Shown here: positions 2,447 to 11,998 of the stretch, one piece after another
How the letters are laid out: every line of letters begins with the position of its first letter
How positions within the stretch are numbered: position 1 is the stretch's first letter
Source of the DNA: Candidatus Thermokryptus mobilis
GTDB lineage: Bacteria; Bacteroidota; Ignavibacteria; Kryptoniales; Kryptoniaceae
Direction: 5' to 3'
DNA: 64,000 nt
NCBI RefSeq assembly: GCF_900070205.1
Contig: NZ_FAOO01000007.1
Location: forward strand, 20,195 to 84,194
The notes under the pieces: generated by a model
The model's database searches: none
What the model saw: only the letters and a program-made list of their open reading frames with translations
Told to the model about the DNA's origin: nothing
Position numbers and translations under genes: made by a program

Positions 2447-3976
2447 TTACTTGGTTGGCGTGGATAATCTCATTGAAATTGATATGATTCGTTTCTTTAT
2501 TTCCTCATCGGTGGGGTTAAAATTTGATAAAGTTTTGTAGCATCGCAGAGCGTCCGCGTAATTTCCACAGGCTAGGTAAGAAAGCCCGAGCACTTTAACT
2601 GCCCTTTCAAAAAAAGTTGAATTTTCCCGATTTAAAAATTCTCTCAAATAACCAATCGCCTCTTCAAACCTTCTCAACCCAACAAGACATAACCCAAGAT
2701 TATATCTTATCTCATCATCATCTTTAAAACTTAAAGCGGTTTTTAATCTTTCAACCGCGGTCTCAAGGTCTCCTTCAAATTGTGCTATCCCGGAGAGTAC
2801 CTTGAAAACCTCAAAGCTTGGATTTGTCTGTGAGATTTGTTTTAAAACTTGGATTGAGTTTTTATTCCCAGATATGTATTCATTGGCTAAAAAGTTCAAA
2901 AATGAATTTATCAAATTTTCTTCTTTTACAAAATTTTCAATCATTTCATTAAGCTTTTTGAAGTTTCCAATCTTGAAATAACAGATGGAAAGTTGATAAA
3001 AAATATCATTCGGATTGATAAAATTTTCAAACGCAACATCGGGTGATTTCCCCTTCAATATCGCCTGTTGGTTCTTTAGAGCTTGTTCAAAAAAATTTTT
3101 TGCCACCGTAAAGTTAAATCTTTTCATCTGTGCAATGCCTGCATAATAATATGAACTGACTTGAAGAGGGGCCTGCTTTATTGATTTGATAAAGAGATCA
3201 AGGGCTGTGGTTTGATCCCCATTTTGAAGCTCATGCTTTCCTAGAACATTGTAGATAACCGCCCGAACTGAATTACCGAGATTTGAGCTTTCTCTTGGGA
3301 TTGAGATTGACTTCCTCAAAAAAGAGATGCCTTCGTTTATTTCTCCCTTTAAAATTTTAACAATGCCAATGTGATAAAGAGCATAAGCGTCGTTTGGGTT
3401 TTCCTTCAATTGCTCAAATAAAATTGACAAGTTCCTCTCATATTTTCTTGACATGGTTTCATCATCTTGCGCATAACCGAGGTGAATTATCTTTATGTCA
3501 GCCCTACCAAGTTTGCCTCCATTCTTGAGTATTGAATTGCTTATTTGCTCATGAATTCGCCCTTCAAATCTGTAATTTGGATTGTTCCTGAACAACCTCG
3601 GATATTCATTTATCGCCTCTGGCTTTCCATCTCTTCCAAAACTTATCACCTTGACATAATAACCATCATAATTTGAATTGAGATATTTTTTAAGTTTTGC
3701 TTTATCTGTGGTTTCAAGTCGCTCATCAGCGTCAAGTATTAAAATCCAATCCCCGGTTGCATGTTTTATTGACTCATTCCTTGCGAGTGAGAAATCATTT
3801 TTCCATTCAAGATGATAAATTTTTGCATTGAACGAGAGAGCTATTTCAATGGTTCTATCGCTTGACCCGGTGTCAACAACGATTATTTCATCCACCGTGT
3901 CCTTCACGCTTTCAAGACATCCTGGCAAAAATTTTTCTTCATTTTTGACTATCATGCAAAGTGAGATCCGTTGCAT
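2447..3976 (-). CDS. Family 2 glycosyltransferase with TPR repeats
   Basis: The protein is 509 residues. Residues ~3-230 form a GT-A fold glycosyltransferase of family 2: SLCMIVKNEEKFLPGCLESV at the N-terminus, VVDTGSSDRT, and the metal-binding DADER motif near residue 82. Residues ~190-500 are a chain of TPR-like helical repeats (for example DAYALYHIGIVKILKGEINE). This GT2-plus-TPR layout is known from protein glycosyltransferases of the SunS type and from many surface-glycan loci. The start overlaps the end of the upstream giant glycosyltransferase gene by 38 bp, so the two are probably translated together. With the flagellin gene just beyond, the likely job is glycosylation of flagellin or another surface protein; the sugar and acceptor are unknown. 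Confidence 0.85.
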   Translation of the reverse strand: MQRISLCMIVKNEEKFLPGCLESVKDTVDEIIVVDTGSSDRTIEIALSFNAKIYHLEWKNDFSLARNESIKHATGDWILILDADERLETTDKAKLKKYLNSNYDGYYVKVISFGRDGKPEAINEYPRLFRNNPNYRFEGRIHEQISNSILKNGGKLGRADIKIIHLGYAQDDETMSRKYERNLSILFEQLKENPNDAYALYHIGIVKILKGEINEGISFLRKSISIPRESSNLGNSVRAVIYNVLGKHELQNGDQTTALDLFIKSIKQAPLQVSSYYYAGIAQMKRFNFTVAKNFFEQALKNQQAILKGKSPDVAFENFINPNDIFYQLSICYFKIGNFKKLNEMIENFVKEENLINSFLNFLANEYISGNKNSIQVLKQISQTNPSFEVFKVLSGIAQFEGDLETAVERLKTALSFKDDDEIRYNLGLCLVGLRRFEEAIGYLREFLNRENSTFFERAVKVLGLSYLACGNYADALRCYKTLSNFNPTDEEIKKRIISISMRLSTPTK

Positions 3977-6900
3977 TTGTCAATTCAGATTTACTTTTAA
4001 TTGGGATAAAAATTTGATTTTCTTTAGGTGTTTTTACCTTGGTGAAAATTTCAACTGGTTTTGCACCCCATTTGTTTATGAAGATTCTTTCATTTCGTCT
4101 CAGGATTTCTAAAAATTTTTTATCCCCGTTTGCTTTAAAACTTTTTGACCCGAAGTGATGGATAAAAACATCTCTTGCGACAGCAATTTTGAACCCAGCA
4201 AGTGTTGCTCTAAGGCAATAATCATCGTCTTCAAAATTTCCTGGTGAAAATCTTTCATCAAAACCGCCAATTTTATTGATCACATCTCTTTTTATCAACA
4301 TACACAAGCCAGCGACTCTTGGGCAAACTAGTCTTTTACCCCTGTTTTTAATGTAAATTTCATCGGCGAATTTTTGAAGTGCTTCTTCATCAATTTTACC
4401 ATCATTTGAATAAAATTTTTCCGCTCCATCAAGAACTTGAAATCCACTTACATAATTGCTCATCGGTCCGATTATGCTAATTGAATTGTCATATAAATGT
4501 TCAAGAAGTCGCTCAAGCCATCTATTTGTCACTATCACATCGTTATTGAGTATAACGATATATTCACCCATTGAAGCTGAAAGACCTTGATTTACCGCCT
4601 TTGGAAATCCATAGTTTTGAGGATTCCTTATAACTTTGACATCTCCAAGTGATAAAAGGTATTCATAAGTTCTATCGGTTGAGCCGTTATCGATGACTAT
4701 AATTTCGTAAGGAACGTTTGTGTATTTTCTTATGCTTTCTATGGCAAGCTTTGTGTAGTTAAGTTGATTAAATACGGGGATGATAATTGAGACAAGTGGT
4801 TTTTTAGTTTCAACTTTTTCAATTATTTCAAGGTTTTTCCTGGCTTCAGAGTTATTCGGGTCAACTTCAAGCGCTTTTGTGTAGAAAAATTTCGCTTCAT
4901 CAATTTTGCCGATTTCAACACATATATCGGCAATTGAGAGCAATGTTTCCAAATCATTTGGGTTTAAACTTAAAATTTTGTGATAAATTTGAAGCGCCTG
5001 TTCAAATTGTTGTTGCTCTGTAAATAAATCCGCGAGGTTTTTCATCGCTGTTATGTTAGTCTCATCGTAAAACACAGCTCTTTGCAAGTGGAACAATGCT
5101 TTTTCAACATCGCTAAGTTTATATTTCATCACTGCGTAATCGTTGTGAATTTGGGAATTTAGCTTTTCAAGATGGTTTAATTTCTCAATGGAGGTTTTAT
5201 GTTCGTTAATTTTTCCCAGCTGGTGATACAGTTTCGCATTGTGGTAGAACGACGCCATGAGTTTTGCGTTATAGCGAAGTGAAAGTTTAAAATATGACTC
5301 GGCTAAAGGGAGATTATTTTCTGTAAAGTTTGAGCGAGCGAATTCAAGAAGTGATTCAATCGTGATATCGTCTGATGGGTCAAGTGTTAAAATTTTTCTT
5401 TTCCCTTTTCTTTTAGAAAACCAAGGCATCCCAAATACAGCTCTTTTGACAGCTTCAAGATAACCGTGACCAAATTTTATATCCGGCTCAAGATAATTTC
5501 CTTCAGCCCATTCGTTCCAAGAATTTATGAAAACGATCCTGTATTCGGGGTTTCTATTTTGAACTCTATCAATTTCAATCCGTAGCCATTTCTCAAATAT
5601 ATCCGGTGATGAATTTGTGAGTATAAACGGTTTTGATTTTTTCCTTCGGGCTGTGTTATCCCAGGATGGCGTTACACAAGCAAATGATGTGTTGCTTCTT
5701 CTGACTATATCATCGTTGAACTCTGACATGATTTTTACAGCTTCCTCGTAGTCAAAAATTAGATTTAAATTTTCAATGGGCAGTTTTGATCTTTCCATCA
5801 TACGATATGTTAAACCCTTGAAAAATGGTTGAAATATGACCTCGCCGTCAAATCCCGTAGTTTTCCAGTTGTCTATTATTCCAGCCGAAGCTCTTATTGC
5901 GATTAAAAATAAGTCCCCAATTCCTGATTTTCTGGCGAGACGTCTCCAAAGTTCAATCATTTCCTTTAAATCTGGTATCTCAGCTGGTCTGTAAATTAGG
6001 AAAACTGGCTTTCCATCTATTTTAAGATATCTGGGGTCTTTGAAGAAAGGCATAAGCCATTCAAAATGATTGATATGGTCTTTAATACCGCCATAAGTTT
6101 GTTTTAAAAGTATTTCACTGTTTAGTCCGTCCCATCTTCTTGTCCAGTTTTCGTTCGCCCAGGCAAGACAAAACGGAAAATCGGGTTCCCCAGTTTTTAA
6201 AATTTCAAGTAGAGGTTTTTCAAGTAAAGTTTTTCCATTAAACCAGTAGTGCCAGTAACAGAAAGCATCAATACCATAATTTCGCGCAAGTTCTGCCTGT
6301 TCTTTTCTAACTTCCGGTAGTCGTAAGTCATAGAAACCAAGGTCTGCGGGGATGCGCGGTTGATAATGTCCTGGAAAAAGCGGTTTAGCCGTGGTGACAT
6401 TTCTCCATTCGGTGAAGCCCTTGCCCCACCATTCATCATTTTCTGGGATCGGATGAAATTGCGGAAGGAAAAAAGCAATTAAGCGTGCTTTCTTTTTTAA
6501 GTTTTTATGTTGTGTGATTTCTTCAACGCGCTCATGTGGAAGATTTTTCAGCGATGACTCCAAAGCATTCATAACTTCTTCAACCTTAATCTCTGAAACT
6601 GGTCCGTCGTTATAAATTATCACTGCGTTTTCTCCGCTTTCATAATCACCGCTAAATGGCATATATCTTTTGAAATTCCTGTAATGCCCAATGAGTATAA
6701 TTCCAAAAGTTCCGACTGCGTTTGCAAGATGTGCTGGACCACTATCAACCCCGATGAAAAGGGTTGCTCTTTTTATAACTTCAGCTGTCTCAAGGATTGA
6801 AAGCTTACCACACAGGTTTATAAAATCAACATTTCCACCAGCAAGAGTTGAATCAAGACCAACTTCAACTATTTCAATATTCCATTTTTTCCTAATTTGT

Positions 6901-8210
6901 TTTGCAAGCTCAATCCATTTTGAATTTTTCCAATCCCTTTCTATCTCGTTTGTTTTACAGTGAAAAACGATAAATTTTTCGGGTAGATTTAGTTTATCAA
7001 TTTTTTTCTTTGCCTCTTCAGTTATATAAGCTTTTGGTTTTCCAGCCAGAGCTGGCAAACCAGCGCCTTGAGAAAAAGCCGAGAGGAGATTTCCAATTTT
7101 ATAATAATTTTCGCCAGTTACTACAATTTTACCTTGATCGTTCTTGAGTGGAATTTGACAGCTTGGACAAATTCTGTTGTGAATGTGAAGGTCAAAGACC
7201 TCATCAAAAATTCCGCTCTCTTTAAGTGCTATCCACTCCGTCAGGCAATTAACTTCAAGCGTTTCATCTATGTATGGATTTGAGTCAATAAGTTCCCTGT
7301 ATTCTTTTCTAACACACCAGACTATGTGAGCGTTTGGATGTTTGAACCTGATATATCTTGAAACTGGCTCACAGGCGACAATATCTCCCATATGTTCTAT
7401 TAAGCCGATTCCGATGATTTGCAACTTATCAGAAAATCCAATTTGTGGGGATTGTATAACTAAACTATCAACATTTATTTTCTTTCGCCCAACTACAATC
7501 ATATCTTGAGGTATCGGACCTGGTAGAATTTTTACTACTTCAAGCCCAGCTTTATCAAAGAGAAGGAATATGTTTTCAGTGCTGAAAAGGAAGAGATGTT
7601 CATCTGGTTTGAAGTGTAACCAAGAAGCGTCTTCCCCTTGATATCGTGGTGTTTGAAAGATGCAAATTCCATCGTCATCAAGAAGTTCATTAACTTTTTT
7701 CAGAGCTTTAATCGGGTCTGTAAAATGTTCAAGGACATCAAAACCGGCAATTACATCAAATTTTTTTAATGGAAGATTGACATCAGGGAAGAGACCCGAG
7801 ATGATATTTTCAAGATTAAATCTTTCTCTTGCGTATTCGCATGTTTTTTCATCAACTTCAATCCCGACAACTTTTTCAATGCCGTTTTTCTTACACATAT
7901 ATAAAAAGCCAGCATGTGCACAACCTATCTCAAGGACCGATTTCGCATCTGGTTTAAATTTTTTTAAGATGCTGAACCACAACGGTATTCTGTCCTTAAA
8001 GTCAACTTCACTTCTTTCCTCAATTGATGGATAACCAAATTTATTTACGACATGATCGTGCCAGTAACCGTCAAATGAATAGAAATTTTTCAGTTTTTCA
8101 TTTGAGATTTCATCTTTGGATATGAAAGTTCCGCAATTTATGCATTGAAGATATGCTTCGTGGAGCGAGGGTTTAGTTTTTGCACCGCACCAGCATCTTT
8201 TCGTTTGCAT
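3939..8210 (-). CDS. Giant fusion: methyltransferase, GT9, WbsX-like, TPR and GT2 domains
   Basis: The single open frame of 1423 residues carries, in order: a Cys-rich N-terminus (CWCGAKT ... CINCG); a class I SAM methyltransferase with motif VLEIGCAHAGF near residue 92; a family 9 (heptosyltransferase-like) domain at ~265-540 with GVDSGPAHLANAVG; a WbsX-like domain at ~575-930 starting ARLIAFFLPQFHPIPENDEW and containing GIDAFCYWHYWFNGKTLLEK; TPR repeats at ~970-1125; and a family 2 glycosyltransferase at ~1138-1370 (PLVSIIIPVFNQ ... IDNGSTDRTYEYL). Each domain alone is familiar from O-antigen and protein glycosylation clusters; having all of them in one chain is unusual. The ATG at 8210 faces the flagellin gene across a 167-bp gap that holds a minus-strand sigma-28 type promoter. 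I infer that it builds a modified glycan on flagellin. Confidence 0.85.
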   Translation of the reverse strand: MQTKRCWCGAKTKPSLHEAYLQCINCGTFISKDEISNEKLKNFYSFDGYWHDHVVNKFGYPSIEERSEVDFKDRIPLWFSILKKFKPDAKSVLEIGCAHAGFLYMCKKNGIEKVVGIEVDEKTCEYARERFNLENIISGLFPDVNLPLKKFDVIAGFDVLEHFTDPIKALKKVNELLDDDGICIFQTPRYQGEDASWLHFKPDEHLFLFSTENIFLLFDKAGLEVVKILPGPIPQDMIVVGRKKINVDSLVIQSPQIGFSDKLQIIGIGLIEHMGDIVACEPVSRYIRFKHPNAHIVWCVRKEYRELIDSNPYIDETLEVNCLTEWIALKESGIFDEVFDLHIHNRICPSCQIPLKNDQGKIVVTGENYYKIGNLLSAFSQGAGLPALAGKPKAYITEEAKKKIDKLNLPEKFIVFHCKTNEIERDWKNSKWIELAKQIRKKWNIEIVEVGLDSTLAGGNVDFINLCGKLSILETAEVIKRATLFIGVDSGPAHLANAVGTFGIILIGHYRNFKRYMPFSGDYESGENAVIIYNDGPVSEIKVEEVMNALESSLKNLPHERVEEITQHKNLKKKARLIAFFLPQFHPIPENDEWWGKGFTEWRNVTTAKPLFPGHYQPRIPADLGFYDLRLPEVRKEQAELARNYGIDAFCYWHYWFNGKTLLEKPLLEILKTGEPDFPFCLAWANENWTRRWDGLNSEILLKQTYGGIKDHINHFEWLMPFFKDPRYLKIDGKPVFLIYRPAEIPDLKEMIELWRRLARKSGIGDLFLIAIRASAGIIDNWKTTGFDGEVIFQPFFKGLTYRMMERSKLPIENLNLIFDYEEAVKIMSEFNDDIVRRSNTSFACVTPSWDNTARRKKSKPFILTNSSPDIFEKWLRIEIDRVQNRNPEYRIVFINSWNEWAEGNYLEPDIKFGHGYLEAVKRAVFGMPWFSKRKGKRKILTLDPSDDITIESLLEFARSNFTENNLPLAESYFKLSLRYNAKLMASFYHNAKLYHQLGKINEHKTSIEKLNHLEKLNSQIHNDYAVMKYKLSDVEKALFHLQRAVFYDETNITAMKNLADLFTEQQQFEQALQIYHKILSLNPNDLETLLSIADICVEIGKIDEAKFFYTKALEVDPNNSEARKNLEIIEKVETKKPLVSIIIPVFNQLNYTKLAIESIRKYTNVPYEIIVIDNGSTDRTYEYLLSLGDVKVIRNPQNYGFPKAVNQGLSASMGEYIVILNNDVIVTNRWLERLLEHLYDNSISIIGPMSNYVSGFQVLDGAEKFYSNDGKIDEEALQKFADEIYIKNRGKRLVCPRVAGLCMLIKRDVINKIGGFDERFSPGNFEDDDYCLRATLAGFKIAVARDVFIHHFGSKSFKANGDKKFLEILRRNERIFINKWGAKPVEIFTKVKTPKENQIFIPIKSKSELTNATDLTLHDSQK

Positions 8211-8237
8211 GATTTATACTTTTTTTGTTTTTCTAAT

Positions 8238-8264
8238 TTATCGGAATTTTTTCTGCAATCTTTA
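8238..8264 (-). promoter_or_regulatory. Sigma-28 (FliA/SigD) type promoter for the glycosyltransferase genes
   Basis: Read on the minus strand, TAAAGATT (8264-8257) is followed after 11 nt by TCCGATAA (8245-8238). The flagellar sigma-28 consensus is TAAAGTTT, 11 nt, GCCGATAA, so 14 of 16 positions match with the exact spacing. The start codon of the 1423-residue gene at 8210 lies about 28 nt beyond the -10 element. Confidence 0.75.
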
Positions 8265-8275
8265 ATTTCATTGGT

Positions 8276-8303
8276 TAAAGTAAGTTGGGGGTTTATCCGA
8301 TAA
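8276..8303 (+). promoter_or_regulatory. Sigma-28 (FliA/SigD) type promoter for flagellin
   Basis: TAAAGTAA (8276-8283) is followed after 12 nt by TCCGATAA (8296-8303), close to the sigma-28 consensus. Transcription would start near 8310, giving a flagellin leader of about 68 nt. Its -35 box lies 11 bp from the -35 box of the minus-strand promoter, so the two promoters are back to back. Confidence 0.75.
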
Positions 8304-8320
8304 TTAGAATTGAAAACGCA

Positions 8321-8369
8321 TCGGGGCATGGAAGCCCCGAAAAAATGTCAAACAAAAAAACAAGGAGGT
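8321..8369 (+). promoter_or_regulatory. Flagellin 5' leader: GGA-loop hairpin plus perfect Shine-Dalgarno, CsrA-like arrangement
   Basis: A perfect 7-bp stem (TCGGGGC at 8321-8327, GCCCCGA at 8334-8340) closes a six-base loop, ATGGAA, which contains the ANGGA core bound by CsrA. Twenty-one nt further on, the Shine-Dalgarno sequence AAGGAGGT (8362-8369) contains a second ANGGA. In Bacillus hag, CsrA binds one hairpin site upstream and one site over the Shine-Dalgarno, and FliW relieves the block. The layout matches, but no csrA or fliW gene lies in the window, so the regulator is inferred. The stem is followed by A residues, not T, so it is not a terminator on the plus strand. Confidence 0.6.
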
Positions 8370-8377
8370 AAATAACC

Positions 8378-9220
8378 ATGGCATTCTCACAGGGCACGCG
8401 CATCAACACCAACATCGCAGCGATGAACGCCTACAACGCATTAAATGAAATCAATCGTGAGCTTGGCGTTCATCAGCTCAGGCTTGCCACAGGCAAGCGA
8501 GTAAATTCCGTCTCCGACGACCCATCGGGTTACACGATTGCAAAGAAATTGCAAGCAAGGTCAAGGGGTCTTGCCCAGGCGATAAACAATGTCGGAGACG
8601 CAAAGAATGTCCTTTCAATCGCAGAGGGAGGTCTGCAGAAGATCAATGACCTTCTCGTTTCAATCAAAGAGCAGGTGACAAGAGCTGTAAACGGTGGGTT
8701 GAGCGATGATGAATTGCAGGCTATTGCAACACAGATCAATGATTATATGTCCGAAATTGATGACATCGTAAAGCAGACGAAATTCAACGGTATGCAATTG
8801 CTCCGTGGAGCTGGCGGTGGCGATTGGGCAGCAGGAAGGGACTTCCAAGTCGGAAGCGACGCTGGCGATACCCTTACAGTTAAATTTGATATAACGGTTG
8901 ATAGCACGCTCGTTAAATCAAGTGCTGTAACGACATCCGATCTTGTTTCAAGCTTTATCACGACCGTTGACACTGCGATAAAGACGGTAACTGAACAACT
9001 TCAATATGTTGGTTCGCTTATCAATCGCCTTGATGTCAAGGAAGCAAATCTCATCGTTGGTATGACCAACACGGAAGCAGCAGCGAGCAGAATCTTTGAT
9101 GCTGATATTGCCAAAGAACAGGTTGAAGTTGCCAAACTTATGATACTACAGCAGACGGCAACAGCTCAGCTTGCACAAGCCAATGCTTCACCACAAGGTG
9201 TGCTTGCTTTGTTCAGATAA
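8378..9220 (+). CDS. fliC: Flagellin
   Basis: The protein is 280 residues and forms the flagellar filament after export by the flagellar type III system. The N-terminal D0/D1 region is classic: RINTNIAAMNAYNALNEIN and RLATGKRVNSVSDDPSGYTI, followed by GLAQAINNVGDAKNVLSIAE and FNGMQLL. The C-terminal D1/D0 region has AASRIFDADIAKEQVEVAKL and ends QANASPQGVLALFR. The central variable domain is very short (about residues 145-190), so it is a minimal flagellin close to the length of Bacillus Hag. The start is fixed by a perfect AAGGAGGT 8 nt upstream. A sigma-28 type promoter and a hairpin leader precede it, and a strong hairpin follows it. Neighbouring glycosyltransferases suggest that the filament is glycosylated. 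Confidence 0.96.
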   Translation: MAFSQGTRINTNIAAMNAYNALNEINRELGVHQLRLATGKRVNSVSDDPSGYTIAKKLQARSRGLAQAINNVGDAKNVLSIAEGGLQKINDLLVSIKEQVTRAVNGGLSDDELQAIATQINDYMSEIDDIVKQTKFNGMQLLRGAGGGDWAAGRDFQVGSDAGDTLTVKFDITVDSTLVKSSAVTTSDLVSSFITTVDTAIKTVTEQLQYVGSLINRLDVKEANLIVGMTNTEAAASRIFDADIAKEQVEVAKLMILQQTATAQLAQANASPQGVLALFR

Positions 9221-9258
9221 TTTATGATGACGCCAAGAAATAGATGAGCAGACTAAAA

Positions 9259-9293
9259 GGGGGTTGCCAATTTAGGCAACCCCCATTGTGTTT
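9259..9293 (+). terminator. Hairpin after flagellin, probable terminator
   Basis: A perfect 10-bp stem (GGGGGTTGCC at 9259-9268, GGCAACCCCC at 9275-9284) closes the loop AATTTA. The tail ATTGTGTTT is only partly T-rich, so termination may be incomplete and let some transcript reach fliS-fliD-flaG. The stem could also protect the abundant flagellin mRNA from 3' decay. Confidence 0.65.
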
Positions 9294-9312
9294 AAAAAAA
9301 TTTGATAGAAAA

Positions 9313-9612
9313 ATGAACAACAAAAATAATTACATAGAAACCGAAATCCTCAATCTCTCACCTATTGAACTCATACTCAAAATTTATGATGTCGCAATCG
9401 TAAGCTGTAGGAAAAAAGATGCTGAAAAAGCAAACAAAGCTATAACCGAACTTATAGCATCGCTTGACTTTGATTATAAAGAGATTTCAATTCCGCTTTT
9501 TAAGCTATATCAATATTGCCAGTATGAGATAAGGAAGGGGAATTTTGAAAATGCGCTTGAGATTTTGAAAGAGTTAAGAGAGACCTGGGCAAAAGCTTTC
9601 AATTTAAAGTGA
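9313..9612 (+). CDS. fliS: Flagellar export chaperone FliS
   Basis: The protein is 99 residues from the ATG at 9313. A longer frame opens at 9244 inside the flagellin terminator hairpin and is unlikely to be the true start. The small all-helical sequence fits FliS: LSPIELILKIYDVAIVSCRK at the N-terminus, where the family usually has the segment that begins the helical bundle, then a paired-helix pattern ending ALEILKELRETWAKAF. FliS binds the C-terminal D0 helix of flagellin in the cytoplasm and prevents early polymerisation before export. It lies between flagellin and fliD, in the order often seen for these genes, and fliD follows within 10 nt. It is somewhat shorter than the usual ~120-130 residues. 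Confidence 0.8.
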   Translation: MNNKNNYIETEILNLSPIELILKIYDVAIVSCRKKDAEKANKAITELIASLDFDYKEISIPLFKLYQYCQYEIRKGNFENALEILKELRETWAKAFNLK

Positions 9613-9622
9613 GGTGAATGAG

Positions 9623-11053
9623 ATGTCATTTTTCTTTAACACAAATAACAACATCAATCCGATTGACAATTTAATCCAGTTGTTCAGGCAATCAGAAACA
9701 GGTAAGCTTGTCAAGCCGATTGAGAGGCAAAAGGGGTTAATTCAAACGAAAAATTCAACGCTTTCGGATTTGAAGTTAAGGTTAAACACGCTTTATCAAG
9801 CTGTAAAAGATTTGTCTTTGACAGGTGTTGCTTCAAAGTTTCAAGTTAAAATTGCTGTCGTCTCAAACGCTGATGTCTTAAGCGCTACAGCTCAATCAAG
9901 CGCTACCTCTGCAAATCACACGATTTTCGTCCAACAGCTCGCAAAGGAAGATACAATACTCTCCTCAAGTTTTTCAAACAGTGGATTTGAAATTTTAAAT
10001 TCAACCGGAGAAGGTGCAAAAACGATAAATGTGACGGTCAATGGGATTTCAACTGATGTAAATATAACGATTTCGTCAGGGGATACAAATAATGTGATCT
10101 TAAATAAAATTGCAAGCGCGATAAACTCAACAGTTGGAGATGTTAGCGCGAGCGTTGTTAATCCAACTTCATCAACAGCGCGGCTTGTTATAAAAAGCAA
10201 AAACACAGGTAGTCAATATGCAATTTCTATGTCGGATGTCTACGGAAATTTACTCGCAAGCATCGGGCTTGACTCAAACACACTTTCAAATCGTATTTCT
10301 TCGACGGATACAAATGGTGGGTATCTTTACAGCGATGTGAATTTGCTTGACGCCCAAATAATCGTTGACGGTATCAACATAATAAGGGGCTCAAATAAAA
10401 TAAGCGATGTTATATCAGGTGTCACAATTGAACTAAGAAAAGCGCAAAGTCCTGGGGATACGTCTGTTTCTGTGACAGTTCAGACAGATGTTTCGCAAGT
10501 TAAGGGGGTTATTGAAAATTTTATAAAAGCGTATAATGACTTGATGAAATTTATAAATGAGAAGACAAAGACGACAGCGGAGGGAGTTAGAACTACTTTC
10601 AGCGGTGACAATATGCTTATGAAGTTAAAAATGGACTTGCGTTTGAGGGTAAGTTCAGCGGTTTCATCCGCAAATCCATCTTTTTTAAACGATATCGGGA
10701 TTAAAATTAACCCCGATGGGACGCTTGTTGTTTCTGACAGTTCAAAACTTGAGAGAATGATCGCTGAAGATGTGTCAAAGGTTGAGTTGCTTTTCAATTC
10801 AAGTGATGGAATAGCGGTTAAATTGAAGGACCTAATCAATCCATTTGTTCAAGTCGGTGGTGTGATTGATAAAAGAATTGATTTAGGAAAAGAACAAATA
10901 AAACGGCTTGATGAGAGGATAAAATCGTTAAACGATTTGATCGATCAGCGAGCTGAAAATTTGAGAAGACAATTCGCCCAGCTTCAATCGCTTTATTTCG
11001 CTTTCACAAGACAACAAACACTAATTCAACAAATGACATCAATCTTGCAATGA
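9623..11053 (+). CDS. fliD: Flagellar filament cap protein FliD (hook-associated protein 2)
   Basis: The protein is 476 residues from the ATG at 9623, with GAGGTG 6 nt upstream; a GTG at 9614 would add three residues. The N-terminal region (residues ~10-110) has the FliD pattern of heptads with LNTLYQAVKDLSL and VSNADVLSATAQSSATSANH, then IFVQQLAKEDTI. The middle holds the IgG-like domains, and the C-terminal coiled coil ends with RRQFAQLQSLYFAFTRQQTL and MTSIL, matching the family terminus. FliD caps the growing filament and guides flagellin insertion. Its stop codon overlaps the flaG start (ATGA). Confidence 0.93.
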   Translation: MSFFFNTNNNINPIDNLIQLFRQSETGKLVKPIERQKGLIQTKNSTLSDLKLRLNTLYQAVKDLSLTGVASKFQVKIAVVSNADVLSATAQSSATSANHTIFVQQLAKEDTILSSSFSNSGFEILNSTGEGAKTINVTVNGISTDVNITISSGDTNNVILNKIASAINSTVGDVSASVVNPTSSTARLVIKSKNTGSQYAISMSDVYGNLLASIGLDSNTLSNRISSTDTNGGYLYSDVNLLDAQIIVDGINIIRGSNKISDVISGVTIELRKAQSPGDTSVSVTVQTDVSQVKGVIENFIKAYNDLMKFINEKTKTTAEGVRTTFSGDNMLMKLKMDLRLRVSSAVSSANPSFLNDIGIKINPDGTLVVSDSSKLERMIAEDVSKVELLFNSSDGIAVKLKDLINPFVQVGGVIDKRIDLGKEQIKRLDERIKSLNDLIDQRAENLRRQFAQLQSLYFAFTRQQTLIQQMTSILQ

Positions 11054-11391
11054 TAGGTGATGTCAAGAACATAAACGCAACTAAACCTGTTCAAGTTGAA
11101 CAATACGATATTAGCTCCCAGAGTAGTGTAGATGTGCAAAGGGTTTCTCAAAGCGAAAGAGGTTTATCAACTGATGAGATTGAACAGATCGTAAGCGAGT
11201 TGAATAATTTCATCCAAATTTTCAACACGAAGATAGCGTTTGAAATTGATAAAGAGACAAGGAAAACCGTTTTAAAGATAATTGATGCGCAAAGCAATGA
11301 AATTATACGTCAAATACCACCGGAGGAACTCCTTGAGATTTCAAGAAGGATAAGCGAACTACTCGGTTTGATAATCAATGCCAAAGTTTGA
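11050..11391 (+). CDS. flaG: FlaG family protein
   Basis: The protein is 113 residues and starts within the fliD stop codon (ATGA overlap). The C-terminal ~70 residues carry the FlaG signature: an N-terminal helix, then LKIIDAQSNEIIRQIPPEEL, as in FlaG proteins of Bacillus and Campylobacter. FlaG is a small flagellar protein associated with filament length and is usually found next to fliD, as here. The N-terminal 40 residues are low in conserved features. The end overlaps the next gene by 14 bp, consistent with one operon. Confidence 0.88.
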   Translation: MIGDVKNINATKPVQVEQYDISSQSSVDVQRVSQSERGLSTDEIEQIVSELNNFIQIFNTKIAFEIDKETRKTVLKIIDAQSNEIIRQIPPEELLEISRRISELLGLIINAKV

Positions 11392-11743
11392 ATCAAATAG
11401 AGATTTGGTTCAGGCGATTTTTGACGGTTTGAGGGAGATTTTAAAAATGACACTTTTGATTCGGGAGCTTATCCTTAATGAGGAGTTTGAGGGTTTGCCT
11501 GAACTTCTTTTTCGCAGAGAGGAAAAAATTAATGATGTTGGCGAACTTTTAAAAGAGTTTGAAAATTCAAAGGGAAAAATCTTGAATTTTGATCGGGTAA
11601 AGGGGGAAATCATTGAACTGAGTGAACAGATATTAAAGATTGACAGTGAAAATGCCGATAATATAAAGGAGAAAATGAAGCAGATTTCAGAGGAGCTGAT
11701 AGAGCTCATTGAAAGGAAAAAATTACTAAGATATTTGAGGTGA
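11378..11743 (+). CDS. Helical protein, FliT/FlgN-like flagellar chaperone candidate
   Basis: The protein is 121 residues, almost wholly charged helices with leucine heptads (LREILKMTLLIRELILNEEF, SEQILKIDSE and KMKQISEELIELIERKKLLR). I do not recognise a signature motif. Its position between flaG and flgM, its length and its helical, acidic character fit a FliT- or FlgN-type export chaperone, which in other bacteria follows fliD/fliS or flgM. The start overlaps flaG by 14 bp. The coding sequence also contains a sigma-28 type promoter that reads toward flgM (11634-11661). Confidence 0.7.
   Translation: MPKFESNRDLVQAIFDGLREILKMTLLIRELILNEEFEGLPELLFRREEKINDVGELLKEFENSKGKILNFDRVKGEIIELSEQILKIDSENADNIKEKMKQISEELIELIERKKLLRYLR
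11634..11661 (+). promoter_or_regulatory. Internal sigma-28 type promoter for flgM
   Basis: TAAAGATT (11634-11641), 12 nt, GCCGATAA (11654-11661): the -10 half matches the sigma-28 consensus at 8 of 8 positions and the -35 half at 7 of 8. It lies inside the upstream coding sequence, 85 nt before the flgM start. Transcription from here would give flgM its own late-class promoter, as is known for Salmonella flgM. Confidence 0.65.
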
Positions 11744-11746
11744 AAA

Positions 11747-11998
11747 ATGAAAATCAACGGGATAAACGGCAAAATTTTGTTTCCCGAGGAGAGCTCGGGT
11801 AAAAAACCTGGCAAAGTAAGCGATAAAAAGGACAGGGTTGAAATTTCAAGCGAGGCGATTGAGATTTACAGGATGAAGCGTATGGAAAAAATTGAAGAGA
11901 TAAAAAGAAGAATTCAATCAGGTTATTATGATTCAAAAGAGGTTCTTGAAAAGGTTGTTGATGAAATATACAAACAGATAAAGTCGGAGTTGCGGTGA
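11747..11998 (+). CDS. flgM: Anti-sigma-28 factor FlgM
   Basis: The protein is 83 residues. The N-terminus (MKINGINGK) and the segment DRVEISSEAIEIYRMKRM, followed by a basic helix RVEEIK-like (KIEEIKRRIQSGYYDSKEVL), match FlgM. FlgM holds sigma-28 inactive until it is exported through the completed hook-basal body. The gene is the last of the flagellar block, 3 nt after the previous gene, and is followed by a strong terminator. Sigma-28 type promoters in the same block make the predicted feedback loop visible in the sequence. Confidence 0.88.
   Translation: MKINGINGKILFPEESSGKKPGKVSDKKDRVEISSEAIEIYRMKRMEKIEEIKRRIQSGYYDSKEVLEKVVDEIYKQIKSELR

Follow-up and report, generated by a model that had tools for sequence, protein, structure and literature searches.

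The arrangement examined here raises the question of whether a very large glycosyltransferase gene is tied to flagellar gene expression through its own promoter or merely stands next to flagellin. In the window, the whole 64,000-nucleotide stretch of the Candidatus Thermokryptus mobilis genome that was analysed, the giant gene (3939..8210, minus strand, 1423 aa) diverges from the flagellin gene (8378..9220, plus strand, 280 aa, with the Pfam flagellin N and C domains), and a gap of 167 bp lies between the start of the former at 8210 and that of the latter at 8378. The sequence-only reading had placed a sigma-28 motif on each strand of this gap, with 11 nucleotides between the elements on the minus strand and 12 on the plus strand, and both are present exactly as it described them. 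On the minus strand, positions 8264-8238 read TAAAGATT-GCAGAAAAAAT-TCCGATAA (8238..8264, the form TAAAGATT-N11-TCCGATAA), and the ATG of the giant gene lies 27 nt past the end of the -10 element. On the plus strand, positions 8276-8303 read TAAAGTAA-GTTGGGGGTTTA-TCCGATAA (8276..8303, the form TAAAGTAA-N12-TCCGATAA) ahead of flagellin, so that the two sites stand back to back in a stretch of 66 bp. Each combines a TAAA(G) -35 element with a (G/T)CCGATAA -10 element. Counted from TAAA plus G to the base before CCGATAA, the minus-strand site has 14 bases and the plus-strand site 15, a spacing in keeping with the form accepted for sigma-28 in B. subtilis, TAAA-N13-16-GCCGATAW (PMC3865298).

By chance alone, a second-order Markov background would produce about 1.2 copies of the strict pattern TAAAG-N15/16-CCGATAA over the 2.42-Mb genome and about 4e-5 copies per strand over the 167-bp gap. 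Seven exact sites were observed genome-wide, in scans made up of a pattern search and the stretches around its matches, and two of the seven fall in the gap between the giant gene and flagellin. A sigma-28 matrix trained solely on sites from other genomes was used to score every position of the window on either strand. The transferase-side site on the minus strand had the top score of the whole 64 kb (24.0) and the flagellin site the second (23.8), bearing out the proposed match to the sigma-28 consensus. A third site, at 11634, scored 23.5, the following best position scored 14.2, and the best score in 30 shuffled windows was 19.3. A consensus scan found no sigma-70-like promoter at 7900-8700. 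Two more permissive searches were abandoned: the loose pattern TAAA-N14-17-NCCGATAW proved too permissive (49 matches against 28 for the reversed control), and a one-mismatch search was uninformative (28 against 31). The strict pattern and the matrix therefore carry the conclusions.

Every genome of the genus with an intact upstream region, six in number (G000-G005), retains the two back-to-back sites. In each, the transferase-side site has the form TAAAG-N15-CCGATAA and the site facing flagellin the form TAAAG-N16-CCGATAA, with a spacer one base longer in all six. The distance from the -10 element to the flagellin start is 72-75 nt in these genomes, and that from the opposing -10 element to the first transferase gene, whichever gene comes first, is 23-34 nt. 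Both sites are very probably genuine FliA (sigma-28) promoters, a judgement made jointly for them and for the whole explanation set out below.

Such promoters presuppose a sigma-28 factor and a motif that is not scattered at random, and the genomes agree with the sequence-only reading on both points. The source genome encodes FliA (TIGR02479, 212.5 bits against a cut-off of 189.6), as do all seven genomes of the genus, each above the curated cut-off. Its surroundings form a flagellar cluster, in which it is preceded by flhF/flhG-like genes and followed by flgF/G, flgK/L, mot, fliW and csrA; fliW and csrA were confirmed by Pfam and the other neighbours were recognised by eye from their sequences. 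Over the seven genomes the exact pattern matched 44 times and its reversed control 12 times. Those matches whose gene context was read cluster ahead of flagellin, flgM, the glycosyltransferase operon, a chemoreceptor gene and the gene of a small CxxC protein, a distribution that has the shape of a late flagellar regulon.

The third site of the window, TAAAGATTGACAGTGAAAATGCCGATAA (11634..11661, plus strand), lies upstream of flgM and inside the preceding gene (11378-11743, plus strand), which is FlgN-like by position only. It recurs within the preceding gene in the same six genomes (G000-G005). The flgM gene itself, for the anti-sigma-28 factor (11747..11998, plus strand; PF04316, 25.1 bits against a cut-off of 25.0), lies downstream of flaG with one gene between them, and the site probably gives FliA-driven feedback through flgM. 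Another sigma-28-like site (L131:5745-5771, that is G000:C2:43744-43770) lies within a DUF2802-like gene that stands a short way ahead of flgF, in at least five and probably all seven genomes of the genus, and may be either a promoter or a conserved peptide motif (KENLIYADK in G000). As the sites in flgM's upstream neighbour and in the DUF2802-like gene lie in coding sequence, their conservation could be partly at the level of protein, and they are weaker evidence than the intergenic pair. Elsewhere in the genus, a CxxC protein of only some 80 aa, without a Pfam match (L134:6779-7036), has a sigma-28 site about 40 nt upstream, seen in G000, G001 and G004, and is a candidate motility-linked protein. 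A chemoreceptor of the protoglobin-MCP-CZB type (L132:6493-8595) has a site 26 nt before its start, which is also found in G006.

What the minus-strand promoter drives is a predicted operon of two genes. The giant protein encoded by the first contains a methyltransferase domain (79-227), a GT9-like domain (375-504), a WbsX domain (577-921), TPRs (approximately 1030-1127) and a GT2 domain (1136-1360). The proposed tie between promoter and giant enzyme stands with one correction: the promoter is conserved in front of the operon, but the giant gene is missing from two of the six genomes, G003 and G005, where the best genome-wide matches (1.5e-22 and 6.5e-25) are to other GT2 genes and where the same promoter reads directly into the second gene. 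Since G003 is, with full support in the tree, the sister of G001, which carries the giant gene, at least two gains or losses behind a constant promoter are needed. These could be two losses or more than one gain. Judged by gene content, the giant enzyme comes first in the operon where it occurs but is optional, and it is not the constant target of the promoter. A far longer homologue exists in the sister family, f2, one genome of which (G017) encodes a multidomain protein of 3044 aa (L124:263-9397); other f2 genomes encode several enzymes of 1500-3000 aa.

The second gene (2447..3976, minus strand), which shares 38 nt with the end of the giant gene, encodes a protein of 509 aa with a GT2 domain followed by TPRs. 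By sequence its best solved relative is the glycosyltransferase domain of GmaR (E 2.2e-38, residues 4-193), to which its GT2 catalytic domain is related, followed by SunS (3.7e-27). The closest PDB folds to a model of the protein (mean pLDDT 88.1) are those of the peptide S-glycosyltransferases SunS and ThuS. SunS and ThuS modify bacteriocin peptides. Membership of the SunS equivalog was rejected, the protein scoring 92.8 bits against the TIGR04195 cut-off of 350. Identity with GmaR was likewise rejected, because the C-terminal GmaR chain (7x9r) matches the protein only at 139-270, the start of the TPRs, and its anti-repressor part is unmatched; the protein is referred to here as GmaR/SunS-like.

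Gene order across the class links GT2 genes of this kind to flagellin. In f2 a GT2 gene lies directly upstream of flagellin and in the same orientation in 11 of the 11 flagellin-bearing genomes, with a MIVK[N/D]EE-type (or MIVRNE) signature, and a GT2 gene is found just upstream of flagellin in G036, G040, G045 and G058 as well. Together with the absence of the giant gene from two of the six genus genomes, these pairings make flagellin plus the GT2(-TPR) gene the constant unit. What the promoter is linked to, on these comparisons, is the glycosyltransferase operon as such, and the invariant member of that operon is the GmaR/SunS-like gene. Its product is a probable flagellin glycosyltransferase, as judged from homology, fold model and gene order; the literature consulted documents no flagellin glycosylation in Kryptonia. 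By analogy with SunS, GT2-TPR enzymes also glycosylating small peptides, the acceptor could be something other than flagellin.

It is possible, if rather doubtful, that the promoters are real but that the giant enzyme makes a distinct surface polysaccharide that is simply co-expressed with motility, with the GT2-TPR protein alone acting on flagellin. The giant homologues of f2, which lie away from flagellin and have no strong sigma-28 sites, would fit such a role, as would the position of one of them next to a gene whose sequence, judged by eye, predicts a UDP-galactopyranose mutase-like protein, and the two genomes of the genus that lost or never had the giant gene. Within the genus, however, the giant gene opens the operon linked to flagellin and its end overlaps the GT2-TPR gene, and G040 and G045 likewise have large TPR-GT genes ahead of their GT2-TPR and flagellin genes. 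The reading preferred here is that the giant enzyme, where present, would act on the same flagellin glycan as its neighbour. Quite unlikely is an arrangement in which only the flagellin promoter works, the minus-strand site being a chance or decayed match and the transferase operon being under another promoter. The motif is short, which would allow for this, but a chance match is hard to reconcile with the highest score in 64 kb, with retention in six genomes at 23-34 nt from whichever gene comes first, and with the failure to find a sigma-70-like site there. It is very unlikely that the GT2-TPR protein doubles as an anti-repressor, with the promoter pair forming part of a feedback switch, for while GmaR is bifunctional (PMC9638930) and the TPR part could bind a regulator, the match to 7x9r stops short of the anti-repressor part and no MogR was found in the genus, although the control genomes also gave none.

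A more speculative extension, offered tentatively, is that the minus-strand promoter acts as a fixed regulatory port behind which whole glycosylation genes are gained and lost, the promoter and the GmaR/SunS-like gene staying in place, and that a co-directional GT2-flagellin pair became divergent and doubly sigma-28-driven in the genus. If this were true, species could change their flagellar glycan without rewiring its expression.

On the other side of the gap, flagellin is followed on the plus strand by fliS (9244..9612, its true start likely being a downstream ATG by comparison with relatives), the filament cap gene fliD (9614..11053, with relatives suggesting a start at 9623) and flaG (11050..11391). 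Relatives of the flagellin at 88-99% identity occur in Ca. Thermokryptus, Ca. Kryptonium thompsonii, Ca. Chrysopegis kryptomonas and another Kryptonia genome. Two elements stand out in the leader of flagellin: a hairpin, TCGGGGC(ATGGAA)GCCCCGA, with an ANGGA loop (8321..8340, plus strand; probable CsrA site 1), and a Shine-Dalgarno sequence overlapping a second ANGGA, ACAAGGAGGT (8360..8369, plus strand; possible CsrA site 2). Among the flagellin leaders read from the class, 22 carry the hairpin, two of these being the same leader from two loci. Six of its seven pairs show two-sided compensatory change, 93% of cells are paired, and none of 500 shuffles reaches the covariation score. A consensus scan had offered these positions as a terminator on the minus strand, a reading rejected on account of the ANGGA loop and the covariation in flagellin leaders. 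The hairpin is likely to be a CsrA site and, with csrA (PF02599) and fliW (PF02623) present as adjacent genes in the source genome, points to a CsrA-FliW circuit acting on flagellin in Kryptonia too. Nothing comparable was noticed in the leader of the transferase operon, which is short; the two operons would thus have their transcriptional timing in common and differ in translational control.

Export of FlgM after completion of the hook, which frees FliA, is established for the FliA/FlgM system. The genes present suggest the same course in Kryptonia: once the hook is done, FlgM would leave the cell and FliA be freed. RNA polymerase carrying FliA would then start flagellin and the transferase operon together from the conserved promoters, the plus-strand promoter transcribing flagellin, with fliS, fliD and flaG downstream, and the minus-strand promoter the two-gene operon. 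Homology and the flagellin-adjacent GT2 genes of the class point to the GT2-TPR protein as the one that would bind flagellin in the cytoplasm and add the first sugar, and the domains and operon position of the giant protein would suit it, where present, to extending or methylating the glycan. Flagellin output alone may be further tuned at translation by CsrA and FliW through the leader hairpin. Taken as a whole, this explanation, with twin FliA promoters serving flagellin and the two-gene transferase operon, is held with high confidence. One sigma factor appears to turn on flagellin and, divergently, the enzymes that probably coat the filament with sugar.

The analysis provides a predicted flagellar sigma-28 regulon for an almost uncultured thermophilic lineage, Ca. 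Kryptonia being bacteria of hot springs, and a candidate dedicated flagellin glycosyltransferase linked to flagellin by gene order and promoter. As the giant gene is present or absent behind an unchanged promoter, its role could be tested directly by comparing filament glycans across species.

Several known systems resemble parts of this one. GmaR of Listeria monocytogenes is a flagellin GlcNAc transferase that also carries a distinct anti-repressor domain directed at MogR; like the Kryptonia GT2-TPR protein it has an N-terminal GT2 domain followed by TPRs, but it is 637 residues long with that domain, a part unmatched in the 509-aa Kryptonia protein (PMC9638930). FlmG of Caulobacter crescentus is also a modular TPR and glycosyltransferase protein, and its TPR part binds flagellin; it differs in its opposite domain order, its GT-B fold and its CtrA-linked, cell-cycle-dependent expression (PMC7591256). 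The flagellin leader resembles that of Campylobacter jejuni flaA, a target of CsrA-FliW, in having an ANGGA-loop hairpin and an ANGGA over the ribosome-binding site, the CsrA site in Kryptonia being predicted from sequence (PMC4894983). In Clostridioides difficile, as predicted for Kryptonia, sigma-28 covers both flagellin and glycosylation genes: flagellin, flgM, the adjacent glycosyltransferase CD0240 and the glycosylation genes CD0241-CD0244 are all SigD-dependent. The C. difficile study found no SigD promoter dedicated to the glycosylation cluster and proposed that it is cotranscribed from the promoter of fliC, whereas the Kryptonia operon is divergent and has a site of its own (PMC3865298). 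For the sfm modification operon of Shewanella oneidensis a FliA site, TAAAG-N14-GCCGTTAA, was predicted 57 bp upstream; the enzymes are different from those of Kryptonia, and the parts of that account consulted here describe no back-to-back flagellin promoter for sfm (PMC3765264). Sigma-28 control of flagellin glycosylation is thus already known in C. difficile and predicted for Shewanella sfm, and sigma-28 timing of flagellin modification is known in kind. The Kryptonia locus is a known kind of arrangement, usefully extended, rather than a new mechanism, to which it adds a conserved divergent promoter pair, an identified invariant target and a variable first gene.
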